Assembly (NCBI GenBank): GCA_016235595.1
Contig: JACRJX010000039.1
Coordinates: 1-64,000 of the forward strand
DNA: 64,000 nt
Direction of reading: 5' to 3'
Origin: Verrucomicrobiota bacterium
GTDB taxonomy: Bacteria; Verrucomicrobiota; Verrucomicrobiia; CAIQCK01
The notes beneath the pieces are model-generated. The model saw only the letters and a program-made list of their open reading frames with translations. It was not told the origin of the DNA and made no database searches. Each line of letters opens with the position of its first letter. Positions within the stretch are counted from its first letter, which is position 1. Shown here in pieces: positions 52,770 through 64,000 of the stretch. A program made the position numbers and the translations under genes.

Positions 52770-53741
52770 ATGGTGAAAGACCGTTGCTGCGGCGGCGTTT
52801 CAGTCATGGCAATTCTGGTGAGCTTGCTCTGCATCCACGGGTTTGTTGCAGGCGCGGCTGAGAAAACCGCAGCCTCCGCGTTCGGTTGGGAAGCGATGCC
52901 GAACGACACCGGTCTGGTCCTCATCAACAAGGGCACCTCTCTGCCCGTCTGGCGCGCTGTGTGCGACCCCGCGCAGCCGAAGCCCTACATCTACCCGCTC
53001 GCCACGATCGACGGCACCGAACTGACTGCGAACTCTCCCGCCGACCACGTCTGGCACCACAGTCTGTGGTTCGCCTGGAAATACATCAACGGGATCAATT
53101 ACTGGGAAGTGGACAAGAAGACCGGCCTCAGCGCCGGCCGCACCAACATCAAGTCCGCCAGCTTCCGCCGCGGCGATGATTTCTCCGCGCGCGCCGAGAT
53201 GGCCATCGAGTATGCCCCGCCCGGCCAGCCGCCGGTGCTGCGTGAAACGCGCGTGCTGGAATTCATCGCGCCAAGAGCGGATGGCTCGTATGCGATTGAC
53301 TGGGACGCGAAGTTCACCGTCGGCGACGCAGACATCACGCTCGACCGCACGCCGCCCAAGGCCAAGAGCGGCGGTTACGCTGGCTTGTCGCTGCGTTTTC
53401 CAAAGGGAACCACCGGCTGGAGCTTCCTGACAAGCGAGGGCGCGCACAACTCCGACGAAGGCAACGGGAAAAGCGCGCGCTGGGTGGATTTCTCCGGCCC
53501 GACCAAAAAGGGCACGGTCGCCGGCATTGCCGTGTTCGATCATCCAGCCAATCCGCGTTATCCCACGGCATGGTATCTCAACGAGAGCCATCCTTATTTC
53601 AGTCCCGCGCTGATCTACCAGAAACCGATGACATTGAAGGCCGGCGCGACGATGCGGCTGCGCTACCGCGTGCTGGTCCACAACGCCGCCGGCGATGCCG
53701 CCGCGCTCGAACGCTGGTGGAAGTCGTTCACAACAGATTAG
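52770..53741 (+). CDS. Exported DUF6807 (PmoA-like) protein
   Basis: 323 residues with a hydrophobic N-terminus (VMAILVSLLCIHGFVAGAAE), probably a signal peptide. The beta-sandwich DUF6807/PmoA-type domain has YIYPLATIDGTELT followed by DHVWHHSLWFAWKYINGINYW, YAGLSLRFP, WVDFSGPTKKGTVAGIAVFDHPANPRYPTAWYL and LRYRVLVHNA. Members cluster with Gfo/Idh genes; their activity is unknown to me. The track's N-terminal 134 residues are a read-through of the palindrome and upstream gene. AAGG precedes ATG 52770; 52806 is an alternative. Confidence 0.85.
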   Translation: MVKDRCCGGVSVMAILVSLLCIHGFVAGAAEKTAASAFGWEAMPNDTGLVLINKGTSLPVWRAVCDPAQPKPYIYPLATIDGTELTANSPADHVWHHSLWFAWKYINGINYWEVDKKTGLSAGRTNIKSASFRRGDDFSARAEMAIEYAPPGQPPVLRETRVLEFIAPRADGSYAIDWDAKFTVGDADITLDRTPPKAKSGGYAGLSLRFPKGTTGWSFLTSEGAHNSDEGNGKSARWVDFSGPTKKGTVAGIAVFDHPANPRYPTAWYLNESHPYFSPALIYQKPMTLKAGATMRLRYRVLVHNAAGDAAALERWWKSFTTD

Positions 53742-53758
53742 AGAAAGGAACCCCCATC

Positions 53759-55111
53759 ATGATGACCCGTCGCCATTTCCTCAAACAAGGGAGCATCGCC
53801 ACCAGCGCATTGCTCATCGGCACCCACCGCGCGTGGGCCGGCGCCAACAACCGTGTCCGCCTTGCTGTCGTTGGCATTCACGGCATGGGCCAAAGCCACA
53901 TCAGGGCTTACAACGAACTGCCCAACGTCGAGGTGGCAGCGCTGTGCGACATTGATGAGAACCTTTTCCCGGAGGTCATCGCCAAGCATTTCACCAAGAA
54001 GAATCGCCCCGCGCCGAAGACCTACACCGATATCCGGAAGATGGTCGAGGACAAGGAGATTGACGGCTTCTCGGTCGTCACGCCGAACCACTGGCACACG
54101 CTCGCGGCAATCTATGGCATCCAGGCCGGCAAACATGTCTCGGTCGAGAAACCGTGCTGCCACAATTTCTTCGAGGGCCGCAAGCTCGTCGAGGCATCGA
54201 AGAAGTACCGTGTGCTCGTCCAGGACGGCGCTGAACAACGCAGCAACCCGTGCTCGCAGACGATGGCACAGTTCCTCGAAGAAGGCGGGCTCGGCGAGGT
54301 CTATATGGCCAAGGGCATGTGTTACAAGTGGCGCAAGACCATCGGCCACTTCGAGGACGAGCCGGTGCCGAAGGGCGTCCATTACGACCTCTGGCAAGGC
54401 CCCGCGCCAGCGCGGCCGTTCAACAAAAACCGCTTCCACTACGAGTGGCACTGGAACTGGGCCTACGGCAACGGCGATATGGGCAACCAGGGCGTGCACG
54501 AGATGGACATCGCCCGCTGGGGTCTCGGCGTGAAGCTCCCGACGAAAATCAGCGCGATGGGCGGCCACGTCATGTTCAACGACGACCAGCAGACGCCGAA
54601 CGTGTTGATGGCGATGTTCGAGTTCCCGAACCCCAAGGGCGGCGGCGACAAGAAGAAGATTCTCCAGTTCGAAGTGCGGCATTGGATCGGCAACAGCGAA
54701 GACGCGATGTGGATGAAGAACGCCGGCACGGATGGCTACAAGGCCACCAGCGCCGGCAACACCGTCGGGAACCTGTTCTTCGGCTCCAAAGGCTACATGG
54801 CCAAGAACGTCAACGAGTGGCGCACGTTCCTCGGCGAGAAACGCGAGGCCGGTCCGACCGGCAAGGGCGCGGGCAATCACTACGAGGTCTTCGTCAACGC
54901 CATCCGCGACCCGAAGCCGGAGACATTCAATCAAAGCATCCAGGAGGGCTTCTACTCCTGCGCGCTTATTCATCTCGGCAATATCTCCTATCGGCTGGGC
55001 CGCAGCCTGGAGTTCGATCCGGCGACGATGACTTTCCCGCACGACAAGGAAGCCAACGCGATGCTCACGCGCGAATACCGCGCGCCGTTTGTGGTGCCGG
55101 ACAAGGTCTAA
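53759..55111 (+). CDS. Tat-exported Gfo/Idh/MocA oxidoreductase
   Basis: 450 residues. Tat signal TRRHFLKQGSIATSALLIG, Rossmann loop VRLAVVGIHGMGQSH, TPNHWHTLAAIYGIQAGKHV, SVEKPCCHNFFEG (EKP Lys), DGAEQRSNP, NGDMGNQGVHEMDIARWGLG (catalytic His) and a long C-terminal dimer domain. AAAGGA precedes ATG 53759. Seventeen bases after the DUF6807 gene, so probably co-transcribed. A second exported dehydrogenase in one locus suggests different hydroxyls or both an oxidation and a re-reduction step. Confidence 0.93.
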   Translation: MMTRRHFLKQGSIATSALLIGTHRAWAGANNRVRLAVVGIHGMGQSHIRAYNELPNVEVAALCDIDENLFPEVIAKHFTKKNRPAPKTYTDIRKMVEDKEIDGFSVVTPNHWHTLAAIYGIQAGKHVSVEKPCCHNFFEGRKLVEASKKYRVLVQDGAEQRSNPCSQTMAQFLEEGGLGEVYMAKGMCYKWRKTIGHFEDEPVPKGVHYDLWQGPAPARPFNKNRFHYEWHWNWAYGNGDMGNQGVHEMDIARWGLGVKLPTKISAMGGHVMFNDDQQTPNVLMAMFEFPNPKGGGDKKKILQFEVRHWIGNSEDAMWMKNAGTDGYKATSAGNTVGNLFFGSKGYMAKNVNEWRTFLGEKREAGPTGKGAGNHYEVFVNAIRDPKPETFNQSIQEGFYSCALIHLGNISYRLGRSLEFDPATMTFPHDKEANAMLTREYRAPFVVPDKV

Positions 55112-55202
55112 AAACAGCTTCTGTAGCCGCCGATGTGAGAAGGCGGAGGCGTTGCGGCAAGCCGCGCGTCCGCCGCCTTACGGCGGCGATTACGACAATA
55201 CC

Positions 55203-56348
55203 ATGACACCGCGCGAACGCCTTCTAACCACCCTCCGCGGCAAGATCGCCGACCGCGTGCCGGTCGCGCCGTTCGTGCAGGAGGAATACCTCTCCTTCTA
55301 CTATCCACAGAAGCCGAAGCTCGACCGGGTCATTGACGCCACAGAACTGGCCAATGAACTCGACTTCGATTTGATGGCGAAGCATCGCGCACTGGAAGCG
55401 CCGCACTTCTTCCGGCGCAGTCATCCAAACTGGGAACTCCGCCGCACCGAGACGCGCAGCGACGGTATGATCCAGCGGCGTCTGGAAATCGTCACGCCGA
55501 CGCGGACGCTTGTGCAGGAGGAGACCGGTCCCGACAGCGGTGCGGCCACCACCGGTGTGCGGTTTCACGTCACGCGGACTCTCCTGCAAGACGCGGACGA
55601 TACGGAGGCGTTCCTGAAATGGCTGCCGGCACTCGACAACGAGGACCGCTGCTTCATGCGCGAAACCGCCGACACCTGGCGGCGCATCCTCGGCGACCGC
55701 GGCGTGCTCGCGCCGTGGGGATTCGCGGGCGTTTTCAACTTCTGCGCCGACCTGTGCGGCATGGACAACTTCTACATCGCACCCTACATGGACGAGGCAT
55801 CCTATCGCGCGCTGATGAGCGGCGTGGCCGATGGGATGTGCGCCTACAGCGCGGCGCTCGGCGAGACGGCGATTGACTGCATCGGCATCCAAGGCCACAT
55901 GGCCGGCGGCTCGACCACCGGGCCGGATTTCTTCCGGCAATTTGTCCTGCCGTATGAAAAACGAATGATCGACGCCATCCACGCCGCCGGCAAGTTCAGC
56001 GTCTATCACAACTGCGGTTGCGCGAAGATTCTCTATGAGAACTACCGCGAACTGGGCATGACCGTCTGGGAAACCGTCAGCGAGCCGCCCCGTGGCGACA
56101 ACAAGCTTGCCGACGCGAAGGCGGTGCTCGGCGACCGCCTCTGTTTGCTTGGCAACCTCGATCAGGTGGATTTCCTCAAACGCGCCACGCCAAAGGAAGT
56201 GGATGCCGCCACACGTGAGATCGTCCGCATTGGCAAGCCAGGCGGCCGTTACATCTTCTCGACCTCCGACTATCTCGAGAAAGGCACGCCGCGCGAGAAC
56301 GTCGTCGCGATGATTGAGGCCGCGAAAGACGAAGGCCGTTACGCCTGA
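55203..56348 (+). CDS. UroD/MtaA-family methyltransferase-like protein
   Basis: 381 residues, cytosolic. Uroporphyrinogen decarboxylase fold: TPRERLLTTLRGKIADRVPV, ILGDRGVLAPWGFAG, GIQGHMAGGSTTGPDFFRQFVLPY, YHNCGCAKILYENYRELG (His-x-Cys-like zinc site of MtaA/corrinoid methyltransferases) and YIFSTSDYLEKGTPRENV. The true UroD substrate-binding Arg/Asp set is not evident, and the HxC site suggests methyl transfer rather than haem synthesis. In a sugar locus it may handle methoxyl groups (inference). Start at 55203; the track's 38 extra residues are not family-like. Confidence 0.85.
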   Translation: MTPRERLLTTLRGKIADRVPVAPFVQEEYLSFYYPQKPKLDRVIDATELANELDFDLMAKHRALEAPHFFRRSHPNWELRRTETRSDGMIQRRLEIVTPTRTLVQEETGPDSGAATTGVRFHVTRTLLQDADDTEAFLKWLPALDNEDRCFMRETADTWRRILGDRGVLAPWGFAGVFNFCADLCGMDNFYIAPYMDEASYRALMSGVADGMCAYSAALGETAIDCIGIQGHMAGGSTTGPDFFRQFVLPYEKRMIDAIHAAGKFSVYHNCGCAKILYENYRELGMTVWETVSEPPRGDNKLADAKAVLGDRLCLLGNLDQVDFLKRATPKEVDAATREIVRIGKPGGRYIFSTSDYLEKGTPRENVVAMIEAAKDEGRYA

Positions 56349-56441
56349 TCGCGGTTGCGGCAACTCAACCCGAAGGCTGAAGCTGTGCTGACAGGGACAC
56401 CGGCGCCGTGGTCAATCACGGCGTTTGGCTTATGATCTTGC

Positions 56442-57761
<1,320 letters not shown>

Positions 57762-58061
57762 CGTTCGTTTCCTTCCATGAGGTTTGAGAGTGGGCACACG
57801 GCCCGAACGTCGGTGGCATGGTAACACCACAACCGGGCGCGGCACAACGGCAAAGCCGGAGGCCGCAGGCTGCGGCGGGGAACATGGGCGCCGAACAACG
57901 CGCGATTCCGGGCGCGGAGAGTCGGGGTTTTCCCTACGCGCTGTTCGGGATGTTCCCGAGTAGCGCGTTTTGCCCCTGAAGCGTAGTGTTTGTCATCGAC
58001 AACGTGGGAGTGTTCGCGAGCGCCTATGCTTGATGAATGTGTTCCCAAGGAGTCGTGCGTC

Positions 58062-58538
58062 ATGACAATCGTACTAGAGATTTGGGGCATCTGCCTCGGC
58101 GTGGTTTTCATTTTGTGCCTGGCGTTATGCCGCGCAGCCAAGCGACCGATACCCGGCATCAGACACTCGAATCCCATCATTCTCGTCATGGACGACAATG
58201 CCGGCGTTCTTAACACAGTCCGCATGGGGTTGGAGAACGAAGGCTATACGGTTCTCACAGCCTCCGATCCAAACGAAGGACTGCGGTTATTCAAGGAAGG
58301 ATGCCAGAATATCAGTCTGGTCCTACTGGATGCCTCCATGCCTGAAATGACAGGGCATCGCATGTTCGAGAACTTGTGGAAGATTGACGCCGAGGTGCCG
58401 GTCCTGCTAATGGCCCGCTTTTACGAAGAGATCGCGGCAGCCGGGGAACTCAAGAGCAATGTTCACGGATCCTTGCTCAAGCCGTTCTCCCTGGGCGATC
58501 TGGTCGGAAAAGTGCGGGAACTGGTCAGCTTCGCGTAA
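58062..58538 (+). CDS. Membrane-anchored single receiver-domain protein
   Basis: 158 residues. One N-terminal membrane helix (IVLEIWGICLGVVFILCLALCRAA) followed by a receiver domain: ILVMDDNAGVLNTV (acid pocket), LVLLDASMPEMTG (phospho-Asp), LLMARFYEE (Ala in place of the usual Thr/Ser) and SLLKPFSLGDLVGKV (Lys). No output domain. AAGGAG is 9 bases upstream of ATG 58062, favouring this start over 57990. It lies alone on the plus strand between two minus-strand Gfo/Idh genes. A membrane-tethered receiver could act as a phosphate sink or localised signal; partner unknown. Confidence 0.8.
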   Translation: MTIVLEIWGICLGVVFILCLALCRAAKRPIPGIRHSNPIILVMDDNAGVLNTVRMGLENEGYTVLTASDPNEGLRLFKEGCQNISLVLLDASMPEMTGHRMFENLWKIDAEVPVLLMARFYEEIAAAGELKSNVHGSLLKPFSLGDLVGKVRELVSFA

Positions 58539-58581
58539 GCTGTGCCAAGTCGCGCGCTGTCGTTGAGTGGGGTATTTCCTT

Positions 58582-59832
58582 TCAACCCTTTCGGATGACG
58601 CGCTTCTCGCGATCGTAAACCGTGCGGATGCCAAGGTTGAACGACTCCACAGCCATGATGCAGGCGACGGCGTGTTGGTAACCGGCCTCGATGGGAGCGC
58701 GGGTGGTTTTGCCGCTGCGGATGCATTGCAGCCAATTCTGAAAGTGGTCGGGACCTTCGATGCCTTTCACGTCGTTGACGCCGCGAATCTTGCCATCACG
58801 CTTGGGACCGCCTTCGGCGCTGTATGTTGGCGCGGCCCAGTTATCGAGATTCAACTGGCCCTTCTCTGTGTAATACCGATGTCGCCGACCGCCGGAGTGG
58901 CCCATGTTGCACGAGAACACTGCCATGAAACCTTCCGGGTAGACCCACAGCGCCTCGGCGTGATCGGGCGCGGTAAATTTGTGTTCATCCTTCCACGTGA
59001 ACGTGCCGCCCAAACAAACGCAACTCTCCGGGAACTGCGCGCCGGTGATGTAGTGCAGAAGGTCCACGAAATGGCTGCCGAAGCCCGTGATGGGACCATC
59101 GCTGTAGTCACGATAGCCATACCAGCCGGAGTAAAGGTCGGATGTGAACGCCTGTTTCGGAGCGTCCATCTGGAACTCGTCCCACGCCACGTCATCCTTC
59201 TTCACGTCCTTCAAGTAGCGATACCAGTAAGGCTGGTCGCTATTACGGCATTGCTCGATGCGTGACGCCTTGCCGAGCAGGCCGGACTTCCACAACTCGC
59301 GACAGGCGGTGCTGGTGGGCAGGCTGCGCACCTGCGTGCCAACCTGTGCCACGACACCCGCCGCCTTCACCGCGTCCACAGAGCGAACCAGTTCCTCCAT
59401 GTTCTTCGCCATCGGTTTCTCGACATAGATGTGCTTCCCGGCCTTGGCGGCGGCTTCGAGATGCGTGGCATGCTGGTGGTCGCACGAAGCAATCATGACC
59501 GCGTCCACGTCCTTGCACGCCAGCAAGTCGCGGTAGCTGACGAACTGTTTCGCGTCGAGACCATACCATTCCTTGCAGAGCGCGGCGGCCTGTTCGCGCG
59601 CCACACGCCATGGATCGGCCACGGCCACGAATTCGACATTCTCAACCTTGTCATGCTTGTGAATGCCGGCCATGTGCGCATTGCGGCCGCGGTCGCCGCA
59701 ACCGATCTGGCCAATACGGATGCGCTCATTGGCGCCGACGATGCGCGCGTAACTGCGCGCCGTGAACGACATCGCCGTCGCGCCCGCGGCGGCTGTCTTG
59801 AGAAAATCCCTGCGGTTACAGTTGGTTTGCAT
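58582..59832 (-). CDS. Tat-exported Gfo/Idh/MocA oxidoreductase
   Basis: 416 residues. Tat signal NRRDFLKTAAAGATAMSFTA, Rossmann loop IRIGQIGCGDRGRNAHM, IASCDHQHATHLEAAAKAGK followed by HIYVEKPMAKN (EKP Lys), VGTQVRSLPTS, PITGFGSHFVDLLHY (catalytic His) and GPDHFQNWLQCIRSGKTT at the dimer domain. Uses NAD(P) on a sugar-like substrate in the periplasm. Same strand as the TGA-interrupted gene but separated from it by the receiver gene, so a shared operon is doubtful. Confidence 0.93.
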   Translation of the reverse strand: MQTNCNRRDFLKTAAAGATAMSFTARSYARIVGANERIRIGQIGCGDRGRNAHMAGIHKHDKVENVEFVAVADPWRVAREQAAALCKEWYGLDAKQFVSYRDLLACKDVDAVMIASCDHQHATHLEAAAKAGKHIYVEKPMAKNMEELVRSVDAVKAAGVVAQVGTQVRSLPTSTACRELWKSGLLGKASRIEQCRNSDQPYWYRYLKDVKKDDVAWDEFQMDAPKQAFTSDLYSGWYGYRDYSDGPITGFGSHFVDLLHYITGAQFPESCVCLGGTFTWKDEHKFTAPDHAEALWVYPEGFMAVFSCNMGHSGGRRHRYYTEKGQLNLDNWAAPTYSAEGGPKRDGKIRGVNDVKGIEGPDHFQNWLQCIRSGKTTRAPIEAGYQHAVACIMAVESFNLGIRTVYDREKRVIRKG

Positions 59833-60099: not shown

Positions 60100-61746
60100 C
60101 TAGGAGACTTCGCGCGCCGGTTTCTTGATCCCCCACTTGTTCATCCTTGAAAGCAAGGTCGTGGGTTTGACTCCGAGAAGTTCGGCGGCGCCATCGGGGC
60201 CTTTGATCTTCCAATGGGCCTTGTCGAGAATGACCAGCAGGTTCTCGCGCTCGCGGCGCTGAAGTTCAGCTTCTGTGAGAAAGCCTGGTTGAGGAACGTC
60301 CCCTTCCTGTGGTTCCACCGGCGAAGCCGATCGAGATGCAGGCGATGAATGCGTTGTCACAGGCAGGTCAAACTCCAAAGTCCCGCCACGCGCCAGGATG
60401 ACGGCGCGTTCGATCACGTTGCGCAATTCCCGAACATTGCCCGGCCAATGGTAACTTTGGAGTTGAGCGACTCCAGCCTTGGTCAGACGGGGTTTCGTGC
60501 ATTTCAGATCCCTGACCGACAGGTCGATGAAATGCTTCGCCAATAGCGGGATGTCGTCTGCTCGTTCCCTGAGTGGTGTAACCTGAATCGGGAACACGTG
60601 CAGCCGGTAATAGAGATCCTCGCGGAACCGGCCCGCCGCCACCACTTTCTTCAAGTCCCGGTTGGTGGCCGCGATGATGCGCACATCTGCGTGGCGTGTT
60701 CGGTCATCACCGACGCGCTCATACCGTTTCTCCTGCAGGACACGCAGAAGTTTCGCCTGCATCTCCAAGGGAATCTCCGCGATCTCGTCCAGGAAAAGGG
60801 TACCGCCCTCGGCTGTTTCAAAGCGACCGGCGCGGTCTTTGATGGCACCGGTGAAGGCTCCTTTGACGTGGCCGAAGAACTCACTTTCAAAGAGATCCTT
60901 GGGAATGGAAGCACAGTTGACCCTCACCAGCGGCTTGTCGCTGCGCCCGCTGCGCCGGTGAATTTCGCGCGCGACCAATTCCTTGCCCGTCCCGGTATCT
61001 CCAAGGATGAGCACCGAAGCTTCCGTCGGCGCCACCATGTCAATCTGACTGATGATCTGCCGCAAGGAGGCGCTCTGACCGACGAGGTCGCCGAATGCCT
61101 TGGCTTCCACCACCTCTTCCTGCAAGTAGGTGTTTTGCAGTTCGAGCTGTGCCTTAAGTCGTTGGATCTCCTCAAAAGCCCGCGCGTTGGCGATCGCAGC
61201 GCCGACGTGATCAGCGAAGATCCGGCCCCAGGGCCGCGATTCGTCCGGCATGTCTTCGCGGGAGAAGCCAACGATAACGCCCAGAACCTCTCCCTTGAAG
61301 ATGATCGGCGTTGCGCCAAACGCGCGAATCCGTTCCTGTTTCAGCCAATCCAGTCCAACGGTCTCTTCTGGCTGTTTGTCCAGGTCCTTGATAAGTCTTT
61401 GTTCCCCTGTCGCCGCTGATTTGCCCAAGAGTCCTACTCCCAAAGGGATACGGGCGTTTGGATTGCTGAAACGCGGAGCCTCCTGCTCGGGACCGAACAG
61501 AGAAGCACCTTTGCCTGCGACCAGATGCAGGCAACGAAACTGGTCGGGACATTCCGGCCTGCGCGGACAAACCGAACAGATATCTCCCTTGTCAATCAGC
61601 CAAATCTGCACACACACCATCGGCCCCTCCCCGGCACGACTGACGAGCCTCTTCACGAGGAGGTCCAAGGAGTGTTCTTGGGCGATATCCAACAACAGTT
61701 GCGTGGCACGATTGGGATCGAACCGCCTATCACTCGTTGATTCCAT
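60100..61746 (-). CDS. Sigma-54-dependent activator with Cys-rich GAF sensor
   Basis: 548 residues. N-terminal GAF-type sensor (about 10-190) containing CSVCPRRPECPDQFRC (C-x2-C-x5-C-x5-C), which could hold a metal or Fe-S cluster (inference). Then AAA+ domain: GDTGTGKELVAREIH (Walker A), GHVKGAFTGA (GAFTGA loop contacting sigma-54), GGTLFLDEIAEIP (Walker B) and HWPGNVRELRNVIERAV. C-terminal Fis-type helix-turn-helix (DGAAELLGVKPTTLLSRMNKWG). Divergent from the thioredoxin-like operon, whose upstream region carries a sigma-54 promoter, so it very likely controls that operon. Confidence 0.94.
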   Translation of the reverse strand: MESTSDRRFDPNRATQLLLDIAQEHSLDLLVKRLVSRAGEGPMVCVQIWLIDKGDICSVCPRRPECPDQFRCLHLVAGKGASLFGPEQEAPRFSNPNARIPLGVGLLGKSAATGEQRLIKDLDKQPEETVGLDWLKQERIRAFGATPIIFKGEVLGVIVGFSREDMPDESRPWGRIFADHVGAAIANARAFEEIQRLKAQLELQNTYLQEEVVEAKAFGDLVGQSASLRQIISQIDMVAPTEASVLILGDTGTGKELVAREIHRRSGRSDKPLVRVNCASIPKDLFESEFFGHVKGAFTGAIKDRAGRFETAEGGTLFLDEIAEIPLEMQAKLLRVLQEKRYERVGDDRTRHADVRIIAATNRDLKKVVAAGRFREDLYYRLHVFPIQVTPLRERADDIPLLAKHFIDLSVRDLKCTKPRLTKAGVAQLQSYHWPGNVRELRNVIERAVILARGGTLEFDLPVTTHSSPASRSASPVEPQEGDVPQPGFLTEAELQRRERENLLVILDKAHWKIKGPDGAAELLGVKPTTLLSRMNKWGIKKPAREVS

Positions 61747-61776
61747 GGCAGGTTAATATTGCCAGATGGCGCACGA

Positions 61777-61790
61777 TCTGTCCAAACAGA
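61777..61790. promoter_or_regulatory. Candidate enhancer (UAS) for the sigma-54 activator
   Basis: TCTGT-CCAA-ACAGA is a perfect 5-bp dyad about 105-118 bases upstream of the sigma-54 promoter, the usual enhancer distance. A second dyad, TGGCA-N9-TGCCA, lies at 61746-61764 over the activator's own start codon and could allow autoregulation. Confidence 0.35.
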
Positions 61791-61894
61791 AACGAACGGT
61801 TTTTCGTACGTGCAATATTTCGACTCTTCATAGCTAACGCATGAATCGTTGTTAAACGCTTACAATAAGCATCTTATGCAACTGAATGTGCCAA

Positions 61895-61909
61895 TGGCAC
61901 AAATACTGC
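61895..61909 (+). promoter_or_regulatory. Sigma-54 promoter of the thioredoxin-like/DUF4405/RND operon
   Basis: TGGCAC-AAATA-CTGC matches the -24/-12 consensus TGGCAC-N5-TTGC at all but one position, with exact GG-N10-GC spacing. Transcription would start near 61921, about 24 bases before the ATG at 61945. Confidence 0.75.
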
Positions 61910-61944
61910 GCAATGTGTAGTGAATTTGAAGCACGGCCAAAAAT

Positions 61945-62331
61945 ATGAACGTTGTCCCAGACAAAACACTGTGTGTTGAGGTTGGCGAAGCAGATTTCGA
62001 GTCAGAAGTTCTGCGTTCGAAACAGCCGGTCTTGGTCGTGTTCTGGGCACCTTGGAGCCATCCCTGCCAGATCCTTGATGCGGCATTGAATGAAGTCGCA
62101 ACCGCATGTGCAGGGAAAGTGAAGGTCGTCAAGATCAACGCCGACGACAATCCGGATCTCAGCCTGGTGTGCGAAATCCAATCCATTCCAACGTTGTTGT
62201 TCTTTGTGAACGGGAGTCTCCGCGCCAAAGTTGTTGGAACCACCAGCACGCAAGCGATCCTGTCCAAATGGCAGTCGGTCTTCCGCGACAGCGATGCCAT
62301 GCCTCCTTCTTCCACCCAACAAGGGAAATAA
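61945..62331 (+). CDS. Thioredoxin-like protein with single-Cys active site (WSHPC)
   Basis: 128 residues with the thioredoxin fold: LCVEVGEADFESEVLRS, VLVVFWAPWSHPCQILD, VKVVKINADDNPDLSLVCEIQSIPTLLFFVNG (cis-Pro in IPT). The usual WCGPC site is WSHPC: the nucleophilic first Cys is Ser and only the resolving Cys remains, so classic disulfide reduction is not expected. There is another Cys before the cis-Pro segment. No signal peptide. First gene after the sigma-54 promoter, 33 bases before the DUF4405 gene. Confidence 0.88.
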   Translation: MNVVPDKTLCVEVGEADFESEVLRSKQPVLVVFWAPWSHPCQILDAALNEVATACAGKVKVVKINADDNPDLSLVCEIQSIPTLLFFVNGSLRAKVVGTTSTQAILSKWQSVFRDSDAMPPSSTQQGK

Positions 62332-62364
62332 GCACTGCGATATTTTTACAGAAAGGGACTTCTT

Positions 62365-62859
62365 ATGAACATAAAGCGTGAGTGGGTAACACCGATTACT
62401 ACGGGTGCGTTTTTTCTGTCCGCTGCGACCGGGATTCTGTTGTTCTTTCACATGAATTCGGGGGCAACCAAGGTTGTCCACGAGTGGTTGAGCTGGATCT
62501 TGGTAGGCGGCGTCGCCCTTCACATGGTGCCGAATTTCCGCGGACTGAAAATGTGTCTCTCCAACAAACGAGGAGCGCTTATCATTGGAGTGTTTGCTGC
62601 TATTCTTGCAGTCAGCATTCTTCTCCCGACGGGGAAACATGGCGAACCTCCTTTTATGCAACCCGTTCGGGCGCTTTCACAAGCACCTCTCACAACGCTG
62701 GCCCAAGTGGCGCAGATTCCGCCTCAACAATTGCTTGAGCGACTCTCGAAGGCCGGTCTCCAGCCGGTGTCAGACCAGCAGAAGTTGAGCGAACTCACTG
62801 GCGACGATACGAGGAAGCAACTGCGCGTATTATCCCTAGTGCTGAGCGAAAACAACTGA
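62365..62859 (+). CDS. DUF4405 membrane protein
   Basis: 164 residues. DUF4405-type helices: TPITTGAFFLSAATGILLFFHMN, VVHEWLSWILVGGVALHMVPNFRG and LIIGVFAAILAVSILLP. The His residues in FFH, VHEW and LHMVPN are typical of the family, which is suspected to bind haem. A soluble helical C-terminus (LTTLAQVAQIPPQQLLERLSKAG) follows. Function not established. Lies between the thioredoxin-like and RND adaptor genes; electron transfer with the former is only a guess. Confidence 0.85.
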   Translation: MNIKREWVTPITTGAFFLSAATGILLFFHMNSGATKVVHEWLSWILVGGVALHMVPNFRGLKMCLSNKRGALIIGVFAAILAVSILLPTGKHGEPPFMQPVRALSQAPLTTLAQVAQIPPQQLLERLSKAGLQPVSDQQKLSELTGDDTRKQLRVLSLVLSENN

Positions 62860-62947
62860 TGCTGCACGGCACGCTGTTCGAGAGGCACAACCTTACAATT
62901 CGAATACTTTTTCTTCACCAAGCCATTAACCATCTCTGCAACCCAGT

Positions 62948-64000
62948 ATGAATCTTCCATTTCATCCACGTCTTCTGATCGCGGCCCTGGCGGTGCTTAC
63001 GACCTCTTGTTCGAAGACCCAGGCTCCGCCACCCGCCTCTGTGCCAGAAGTCGCAACCATCACGGTCGCCCGGCAGAAGGTCGTGCTGACGACCGAACTG
63101 CCCGGCCGCACGTCTCCGTATTGCATCGCGGAAATCCGGCCCCAGGTCAACGGCCTCATATTGAAACGCCTGTTCACTGAAGGGTCCGACGTCAAAGCCG
63201 GCCAGGAGCTTTACCAGATCGACCCCGCTCCCTTTCAGGCGGTGCTGGACAATGCCAAGGCGGCTCTCGGCCGGGCTGAAGCCCACCGGCCTGCCCTTCA
63301 GTTGAGGGCGGAGCGCTACAAGCAAGCGCTCTCCGAACAAGCCGTCAGCCGGCAGGATTTCGACGATGCGGATTCGGCATTGAAACAAGCCGAAGCCGAT
63401 ATCCAGTATTACAAAGCGATGGTGGAGACAGCGCGCATCAATCTCGGATACGCCCGGGTCGTCTCGCCCATCACCGGCCGCATTGGAACATCCACCGTGA
63501 CGGACGGCGCCATTGTGACGGCGTATCAGCCCGTGGCCCTCGCAACCATTCAGCAAATGGATCCCATTTATGTGGATGTGCGCCAATCCACGACGGATCT
63601 GCTGCGACTGCAGCGCCGCCTGGAGGATGGACAACTCAACCGCAGCGGGCCGAACCTGAAACAGGTGCAGGTGATCCTGGGAAACGGCGTGATGTATCCC
63701 TTGGAAGGGACGTTTCAGTTCCGCGACGTTTCGGTGGACCCGACCACGGCAACTGTGACTTTGCGGATGGTCTTCCCCAATCCCAAGGGAGTTCTTCTGC
63801 CGGGCATGTTCGTCCGTGTGTTGCTGAAGGAAGGCGTTAACGAACACGCGATTCTGATCCCCCAGCAAGCAGTCGCGCGCGATCCAAAGGGTAATCCTAT
63901 CGTTTCGGTAGTGGATAACAATGGCAAGGTCGAACAGCGGAAGCTGGGCCTCGACCGGGTCATCGGCGATCAATGGCTCGTTTCCTCAGGTCTGGCGCCC
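62948..64000 (+). CDS. RND efflux periplasmic adaptor, AcrA/MexA type (3' truncated)
   Basis: Absent from the plus-strand ORF track because it runs off the window without a stop. From ATG 62948, 351 codons are open. A lipoprotein signal (LLIAALAVLTTSC) is followed by TVARQKVVLTTELPGRTSPY, then AEIRPQVNGLILKRLFTEGS (lipoyl half), DVKAGQELYQIDPAPFQAVL, a coiled-coil hairpin (LKQAEADIQYYKAMVETARINLGYARV), SPITGRIGTSTVTDGAIV, MDPIYVDVRQSTTDLLRLQ and VLLPGMFVRVLL. It would link an inner-membrane RND pump to an outer-membrane channel. The pump gene should follow outside the window. The track's minus ORF 62915-63973 is its shadow. Confidence 0.94.
   Translation, partial: MNLPFHPRLLIAALAVLTTSCSKTQAPPPASVPEVATITVARQKVVLTTELPGRTSPYCIAEIRPQVNGLILKRLFTEGSDVKAGQELYQIDPAPFQAVLDNAKAALGRAEAHRPALQLRAERYKQALSEQAVSRQDFDDADSALKQAEADIQYYKAMVETARINLGYARVVSPITGRIGTSTVTDGAIVTAYQPVALATIQQMDPIYVDVRQSTTDLLRLQRRLEDGQLNRSGPNLKQVQVILGNGVMYPLEGTFQFRDVSVDPTTATVTLRMVFPNPKGVLLPGMFVRVLLKEGVNEHAILIPQQAVARDPKGNPIVSVVDNNGKVEQRKLGLDRVIGDQWLVSSGLAP

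Follow-up and report, generated by a model that had tools for sequence, protein, structure and literature searches.

Gene content of the locus

We analysed a stretch of 64,000 nucleotides, hereafter the window, from the draft genome of a Verrucomicrobiota bacterium (GCA_016235595.1; contig JACRJX010000039.1, positions 1-64,000). The estimated contamination of this genome is 5.6%, but the contig is 197 kb long and the module described here recurs in independent genomes. The control region is the gap 61747-61944 between a leftward gene encoding a sigma-54 activator and a rightward gene encoding a thioredoxin-like protein. Its features and those of the flanking genes are listed in Table 1. The rpoN gene, coding for sigma-54, is present in the same genome. 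The region to the left of the activator gene (53570-59832) holds clustered genes for Gfo/Idh/MocA-type oxidoreductases that carry twin-arginine-like signals.

Table 1. Genes and regulatory features of the activator/thioredoxin-like locus (window coordinates)
Feature	Position	Strand	Basis or remark
Sigma-54 enhancer-binding activator, 548 aa, GAF + AAA+ + AAA lid + Fis-type HTH	60100-61746	-	Pfam; alignment of 80+ homologues
C-terminal HTH, recognition region VKPTTLLSRMNKWGI	60127-60171	-	By eye from Fis-type HTH motif
GAFTGA sigma-54 contact motif, aa 296-301	60844-60861	-	Motif position
Four-Cys GAF loop C-x2-C-x5-C-x5-C (C57, C60, C66, C72)	61531-61578	-	Alignment; modelled loop
Possible third activator site, ACGATCTGTCC	61773-61783	+	~122 bp before -24 element; tentative
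Predicted activator site 1, CGAACGGTTTTTCGTACG	61793-61810	+	102 bp before -24 element; from conservation
Predicted activator site 2, GTGCAATATTTCGACTCT	61810-61827	+	85 bp before -24 element; from conservation
Spacer of near-constant length	61828-61894	+	IHF-like sites enriched in relatives, weak in window; suggestive
-24/-12 sigma-54 promoter, TGGCACAAATACTGC (TGGCAC-N5-CTGC)	61895-61909	+	Matrix score; position conserved in relatives
Thioredoxin-like protein, 128 aa, with WSHPC active site (Ser in place of the first Cys)	61945-62331	+	Pfam; alignment; L121 and L142 copies
Small membrane protein; weak match to DUF4405 that does not reach the cut-off	62365-62859	+	33 bp after thioredoxin-like gene
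RND periplasmic adaptor, MexA/AcrA type	62948-64000, continues past window	+	88 bp after small membrane protein gene

The adaptor gene is followed on the contig by genes encoding an AcrB-type pump and then an outer-membrane factor, the latter called from its open reading frame and clustering. Together these make up the gene set of an RND multidrug efflux operon. The small membrane protein was not found in the related loci. Linkage of the activator gene to a thioredoxin-like gene was seen in ten loci, and in most of them RND genes are linked as well. A squalene-hopene cyclase gene (L119:10857-12896) runs in the same direction 54 bp after the outer-membrane factor gene, about 6.5 kb beyond the thioredoxin-like gene, and hopanoid synthesis might share the expression of the efflux operon.

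The thioredoxin-like protein does not have the CxxC of catalytic thioredoxins. WSxPC is found in the window and in all verrucomicrobial partners examined, and the distant L051 partner has WCPPC. The chaperedoxin CnoX (YbbN) of E. coli carries SXXC and is without oxidoreductase activity (PMC6282202); in the window protein, too, serine replaces the first cysteine of the thioredoxin motif. Since CnoX lacking that cysteine has no oxidoreductase activity, a holdase or structural role appears, by analogy, more likely than catalysis. The window protein differs from CnoX, a thioredoxin domain fused to TPR, in that it is a stand-alone domain with no C-terminal TPR and is encoded beside an RND pump. Most of the thioredoxin-like proteins with WSxPC retain a second cysteine (ACAG) that is not part of the active site; SXXC CnoX proteins are also reported to keep a second cysteine, at another position.

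The sigma-54 promoter

A preliminary description of this DNA had placed a near-perfect -24/-12 sigma-54 promoter before the thioredoxin-like gene. The site is there, ending 35 bases upstream of the gene, with GG at -24, GC at -12 and the correct spacing, and would give a predicted transcription start near 61921. "Near-perfect" is too strong, as the site departs from the consensus TGGCACG-N4-TTGCW at three positions and its score is unexceptional, ranking 6th within the window. With the matrix, which was set by hand from the known consensus, 3-10 equal or better sites (about 7 per 64 kb) are expected from Markov shuffles. The match alone is thus not evidence, and the promoter score by itself was rejected as such; the position of the site in relatives is evidence. 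Nine verrucomicrobial relatives, with activators 57-75% identical to that of the window, have a -24/-12 site at the same place, approximately 150 bp away from the start of the activator gene and with the orientation seen in the window. The site is weak or degenerate in L039, L040 and L121.

The wider activator family gave a similar picture. The 64 upstream regions compared come from several phyla. A divergent sigma-54 site with a score of 8 or more is present in 45 of them, compared with 5 of 64 for the opposite orientation and 7.8% for shuffles. At a score of at least 10 there are 33 divergent sites versus 0 on the opposite strand. It is conceivable that TGGCAC-N5-CTGC is fortuitous and that the thioredoxin-like gene is read from a sigma-70-type promoter, in keeping with the number of matches expected by chance. 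Relatives share the position and orientation of the site, however, and a consensus scan of the plus strand from 61700 to 62980 found no sigma-70-like site, and we consider this explanation exceedingly unlikely.

The paired upstream sites

In an alignment of ten loci, a 34-bp block (61793-61826 in the window) is conserved together with the promoter and has the consensus.G.ACGATttTTCGtaCGTTCAataTTTCGaccC. The block and the promoter have mean pairwise identities of 0.67 and 0.64, versus 0.32 for the spacer. A leave-one-out matrix, made from the other nine sequences with the window omitted, scores 38.3 bits at 61793, the only strong match; the next-best place in the 64 kb, counting both strands, scores 10.0 bits. 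Such a single strong match was obtained for eight of the ten loci, including the window, the exceptions being L042 and L046 (indel). The distance between the block and the -24 element is 101-102 bp in nine of the ten loci and slightly more in L046. The paired sites lie within the range of approximately 80-150 bp from the promoter that is characteristic of enhancer-binding proteins.

The preliminary description had also pointed to dyads at about -110 and over the activator start as candidate enhancer and autoregulatory sites. Both dyads exist, but they are short and imperfect, and no inverted repeats with arms of at least 8 were found. The dyad near -110, CGAACGGTTTTTCG (61793-61806), is inside the conserved block. 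An enhancer at about this position is borne out by conservation, in the form of a tandem pair in near-fixed geometry instead of isolated dyads. The dyad near the activator start is present as well, at a position similar to that of the third sites of L051, L066 and L092, but showed no fixed-register conservation.

The conserved block is located 47-81 bp from the start codon of the activator gene, and the minus strand has a single weak sigma-70-like match at 61784-61755. Both would suit an operator through which the activator represses its own promoter, rather than an enhancer of the thioredoxin-like gene. The distance from the block to the -24 element is held, however, even at promoters distant from the activator gene or unlinked to it. 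In L122 the block is approximately 500 bp from the activator gene and 100 bp before a promoter followed by an efflux adaptor gene, with no thioredoxin-like gene. In L141, an otherwise unrelated place that was found by pattern search alone, a perfect -24/-12 core is located 101 bp from the block. We therefore regard autorepression as the sole role of the block as very unlikely; autorepression and enhancer roles can coexist, and given the distance of the sites from the activator start, autoregulation of the activator is possible.

Two further searches were rejected as evidence. An IHF-like site (at least 8 of 9 matches) occurs in the spacer of seven of the ten loci, against 10% of shuffles, but the positions scatter across loci and the site in the window is weak. 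A short-pattern search of the window's own genome for a regulon gave an exact match at the window site only, and the reversed control had more loose matches.

The activator and its GAF domain

As described earlier, the divergent gene encodes a GAFTGA activator. In brief, the protein has a GAF domain, an AAA+ domain with Walker motifs and GAFTGA, and a C-terminal HTH, as is typical of enhancer-binding proteins. The HTH was recognized from its motif; a Pfam search of the activator gave no HTH match. The predicted structure (mean pLDDT 89) is a GAF fold in which the four cysteines sit in a confidently modelled, ordered loop that connects two strands. All four cysteines are present in approximately 50 of the 80 homologues compared, and nearly all of the aligned GAF domains retain C57 and C60. 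The loop is a candidate redox or metal sensor, possibly a metal site, an Fe-S site or a thiol switch. L042 and L043 have lost the four cysteines and retained the DNA module, indicating that the cysteines are not essential in all members.

The same genome encodes at least five further strong sigma-54 activators, and the promoter might be driven mainly by one of these, the divergent gene being merely a neighbour. In G169 the promoter that carries the enhancer block is unlinked to the activator gene; the most similar activator of G169 matches over the AAA+ and HTH part only. Against this, the block is found together with close relatives of the divergent activator, and more distant relatives, in different phyla, have the same class of motif in their upstream regions. 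Control by another activator is improbable in our view.

Comparison with known activators

VnfA and AnfA are sigma-54 activators with N-terminal cysteines (Fe-S) and a GAF domain. The window activator resembles them in being a Cys-rich, GAF-containing, one-component regulator, whereas the pattern and position of the cysteines appear to differ, and there are no nitrogenase genes at the window locus. NorR, which responds to nitric oxide, has the domain order GAF-AAA+-HTH, a divergently transcribed regulator gene and multiple enhancer sites, features that the window system shares, its enhancer sites being predicted. The window activator is not a NorR equivalog (376.8 bits, below the curated NCBIfam cut-off of 476), and the NorR site, GT-N7-AC (PMC4987338), differs from the window motif, as do the targets.

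The best NCBIfam score of the activator, 390 bits, was obtained for FhlA, the formate hydrogenlyase activator of E. coli, among all activators. FhlA and the window protein have the GAF input, the AAA+ sigma-54 domain and the HTH in common, but the score falls far short of the equivalog cut-off of 830 bits. The window activator differs from FhlA in having one GAF domain with a Cys loop, and its targets are not hydrogenase genes. The published FhlA site is CATTTCGTACGAAATG (PMC4987338), which has TTTCGTACG in common with the window block at 61803-61811.

Proposed regulation

Comparison of the loci shows the promoter, the paired sites, their geometry and the linkage of activator, sites, thioredoxin-like gene and, in most loci, RND genes. 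We suggest, with a probability of close to nine in ten, that the control region belongs to a one-component sigma-54 circuit, consisting of the divergent activator, a tandem enhancer, the -24/-12 promoter and a thioredoxin/RND output.

Sigma-54 promoters are switched on by an activator that binds at an enhancer, contacts the holoenzyme via DNA looping and opens it by ATP hydrolysis. From this established mechanism we infer binding, looping and opening at the present locus. The activator would bind the tandem pair of half-palindromic sites at 61793-61827, and looping of the DNA across the spacer of near-fixed length would bring it into contact with RNA polymerase-sigma54 at the promoter. ATP hydrolysis by the activator would then open the polymerase, leading to transcription of the thioredoxin-like gene. 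The same transcript probably covers the gene for the small membrane protein and those for the RND adaptor, pump and outer-membrane factor. The GAF domain would gate the activator. Our most likely guess for the signal is oxidant, electrophile or metal stress, read partly via the four-Cys loop, in which case the output would be efflux and protein protection. This signal and the role in stress-induced efflux are the least certain part of the proposal.

The mechanism is of a known kind, ordinary for sigma-54, while the activator family and its enhancer code seem undescribed. A literature search on the activator family, on isochorismatase with DUF1348 and on sigma-54 with RND or thioredoxin genes in Verrucomicrobia gave nothing directly relevant. 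Neither the activator family and its enhancer code nor their coupling to an RND pump with a Ser-x-Pro-Cys thioredoxin-like protein was found described in the literature searched, which does not prove novelty. RND efflux under a sigma-54 activator appears to be uncommon. The locus offers a readable set of regulator, site, promoter and target in Verrucomicrobiota, where sigma-54 circuits have been little studied. The near-constant distance between enhancer and promoter should be noted, as such enhancers are usually described as position-flexible.

The wider activator family

A de novo motif, t.AcGAaattTCgT.a, was trained on the activator family without the clade of the window, and reached a log-likelihood of 209 against a shuffle maximum of 42. 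ACGA-N4-TCGT occurs in 23 of the 64 family upstream regions (shuffle maximum 5). Sites of the family motif, ACGAAATTTCGT, are usually paired, 17-18 bp apart. Their distances upstream of the -24 element are mostly about 102 and 85 bp (ranges 98-104 and 82-87 bp), and shorter in some members; a third site is sometimes found near 121-125 bp. On the window, the family-wide matrix gives a weak 2.1 bits at 61793, indicating that the clade of the window carries a diverged version, and a test for a fixed-spacing pair with the family motif was not significant in the window (P 0.145). Direct use of the family-wide motif on the window was rejected as too weak, and the clade-specific leave-one-out block was used instead.

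Elsewhere in the family, the neighbours are often isochorismatase-like, DUF1348, DsrE-like, YHS or SDR proteins. Genes for isochorismatase, DUF1348, DsrE-like and YHS proteins form a recurrent set beside relatives of the activator in L049-L105 (several phyla), for which we know of no function.

We speculate, at even odds, that an undescribed and widespread family of activators with a four-Cys GAF sensor uses one enhancer code, the tandem motif at near-fixed distances from the -24 element, to control operons for stress responses or detoxification across many phyla, and that in Verrucomicrobia its output is an RND pump together with a Ser-x-Pro-Cys thioredoxin-like protein. A family-wide enhancer code would allow regulon prediction for these activators in several phyla.

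The activators of L084, L085, L090 and L145 are 57-67% identical to that of the window in the AAA+/HTH part and have a different N-terminus, which is receiver-like in L084, L085 and L090. In L084 and L145 a TGGCA site follows the enhancer block at a distance of 101-102 bp, which suggests that the sensor was exchanged while the DNA code stayed the same.
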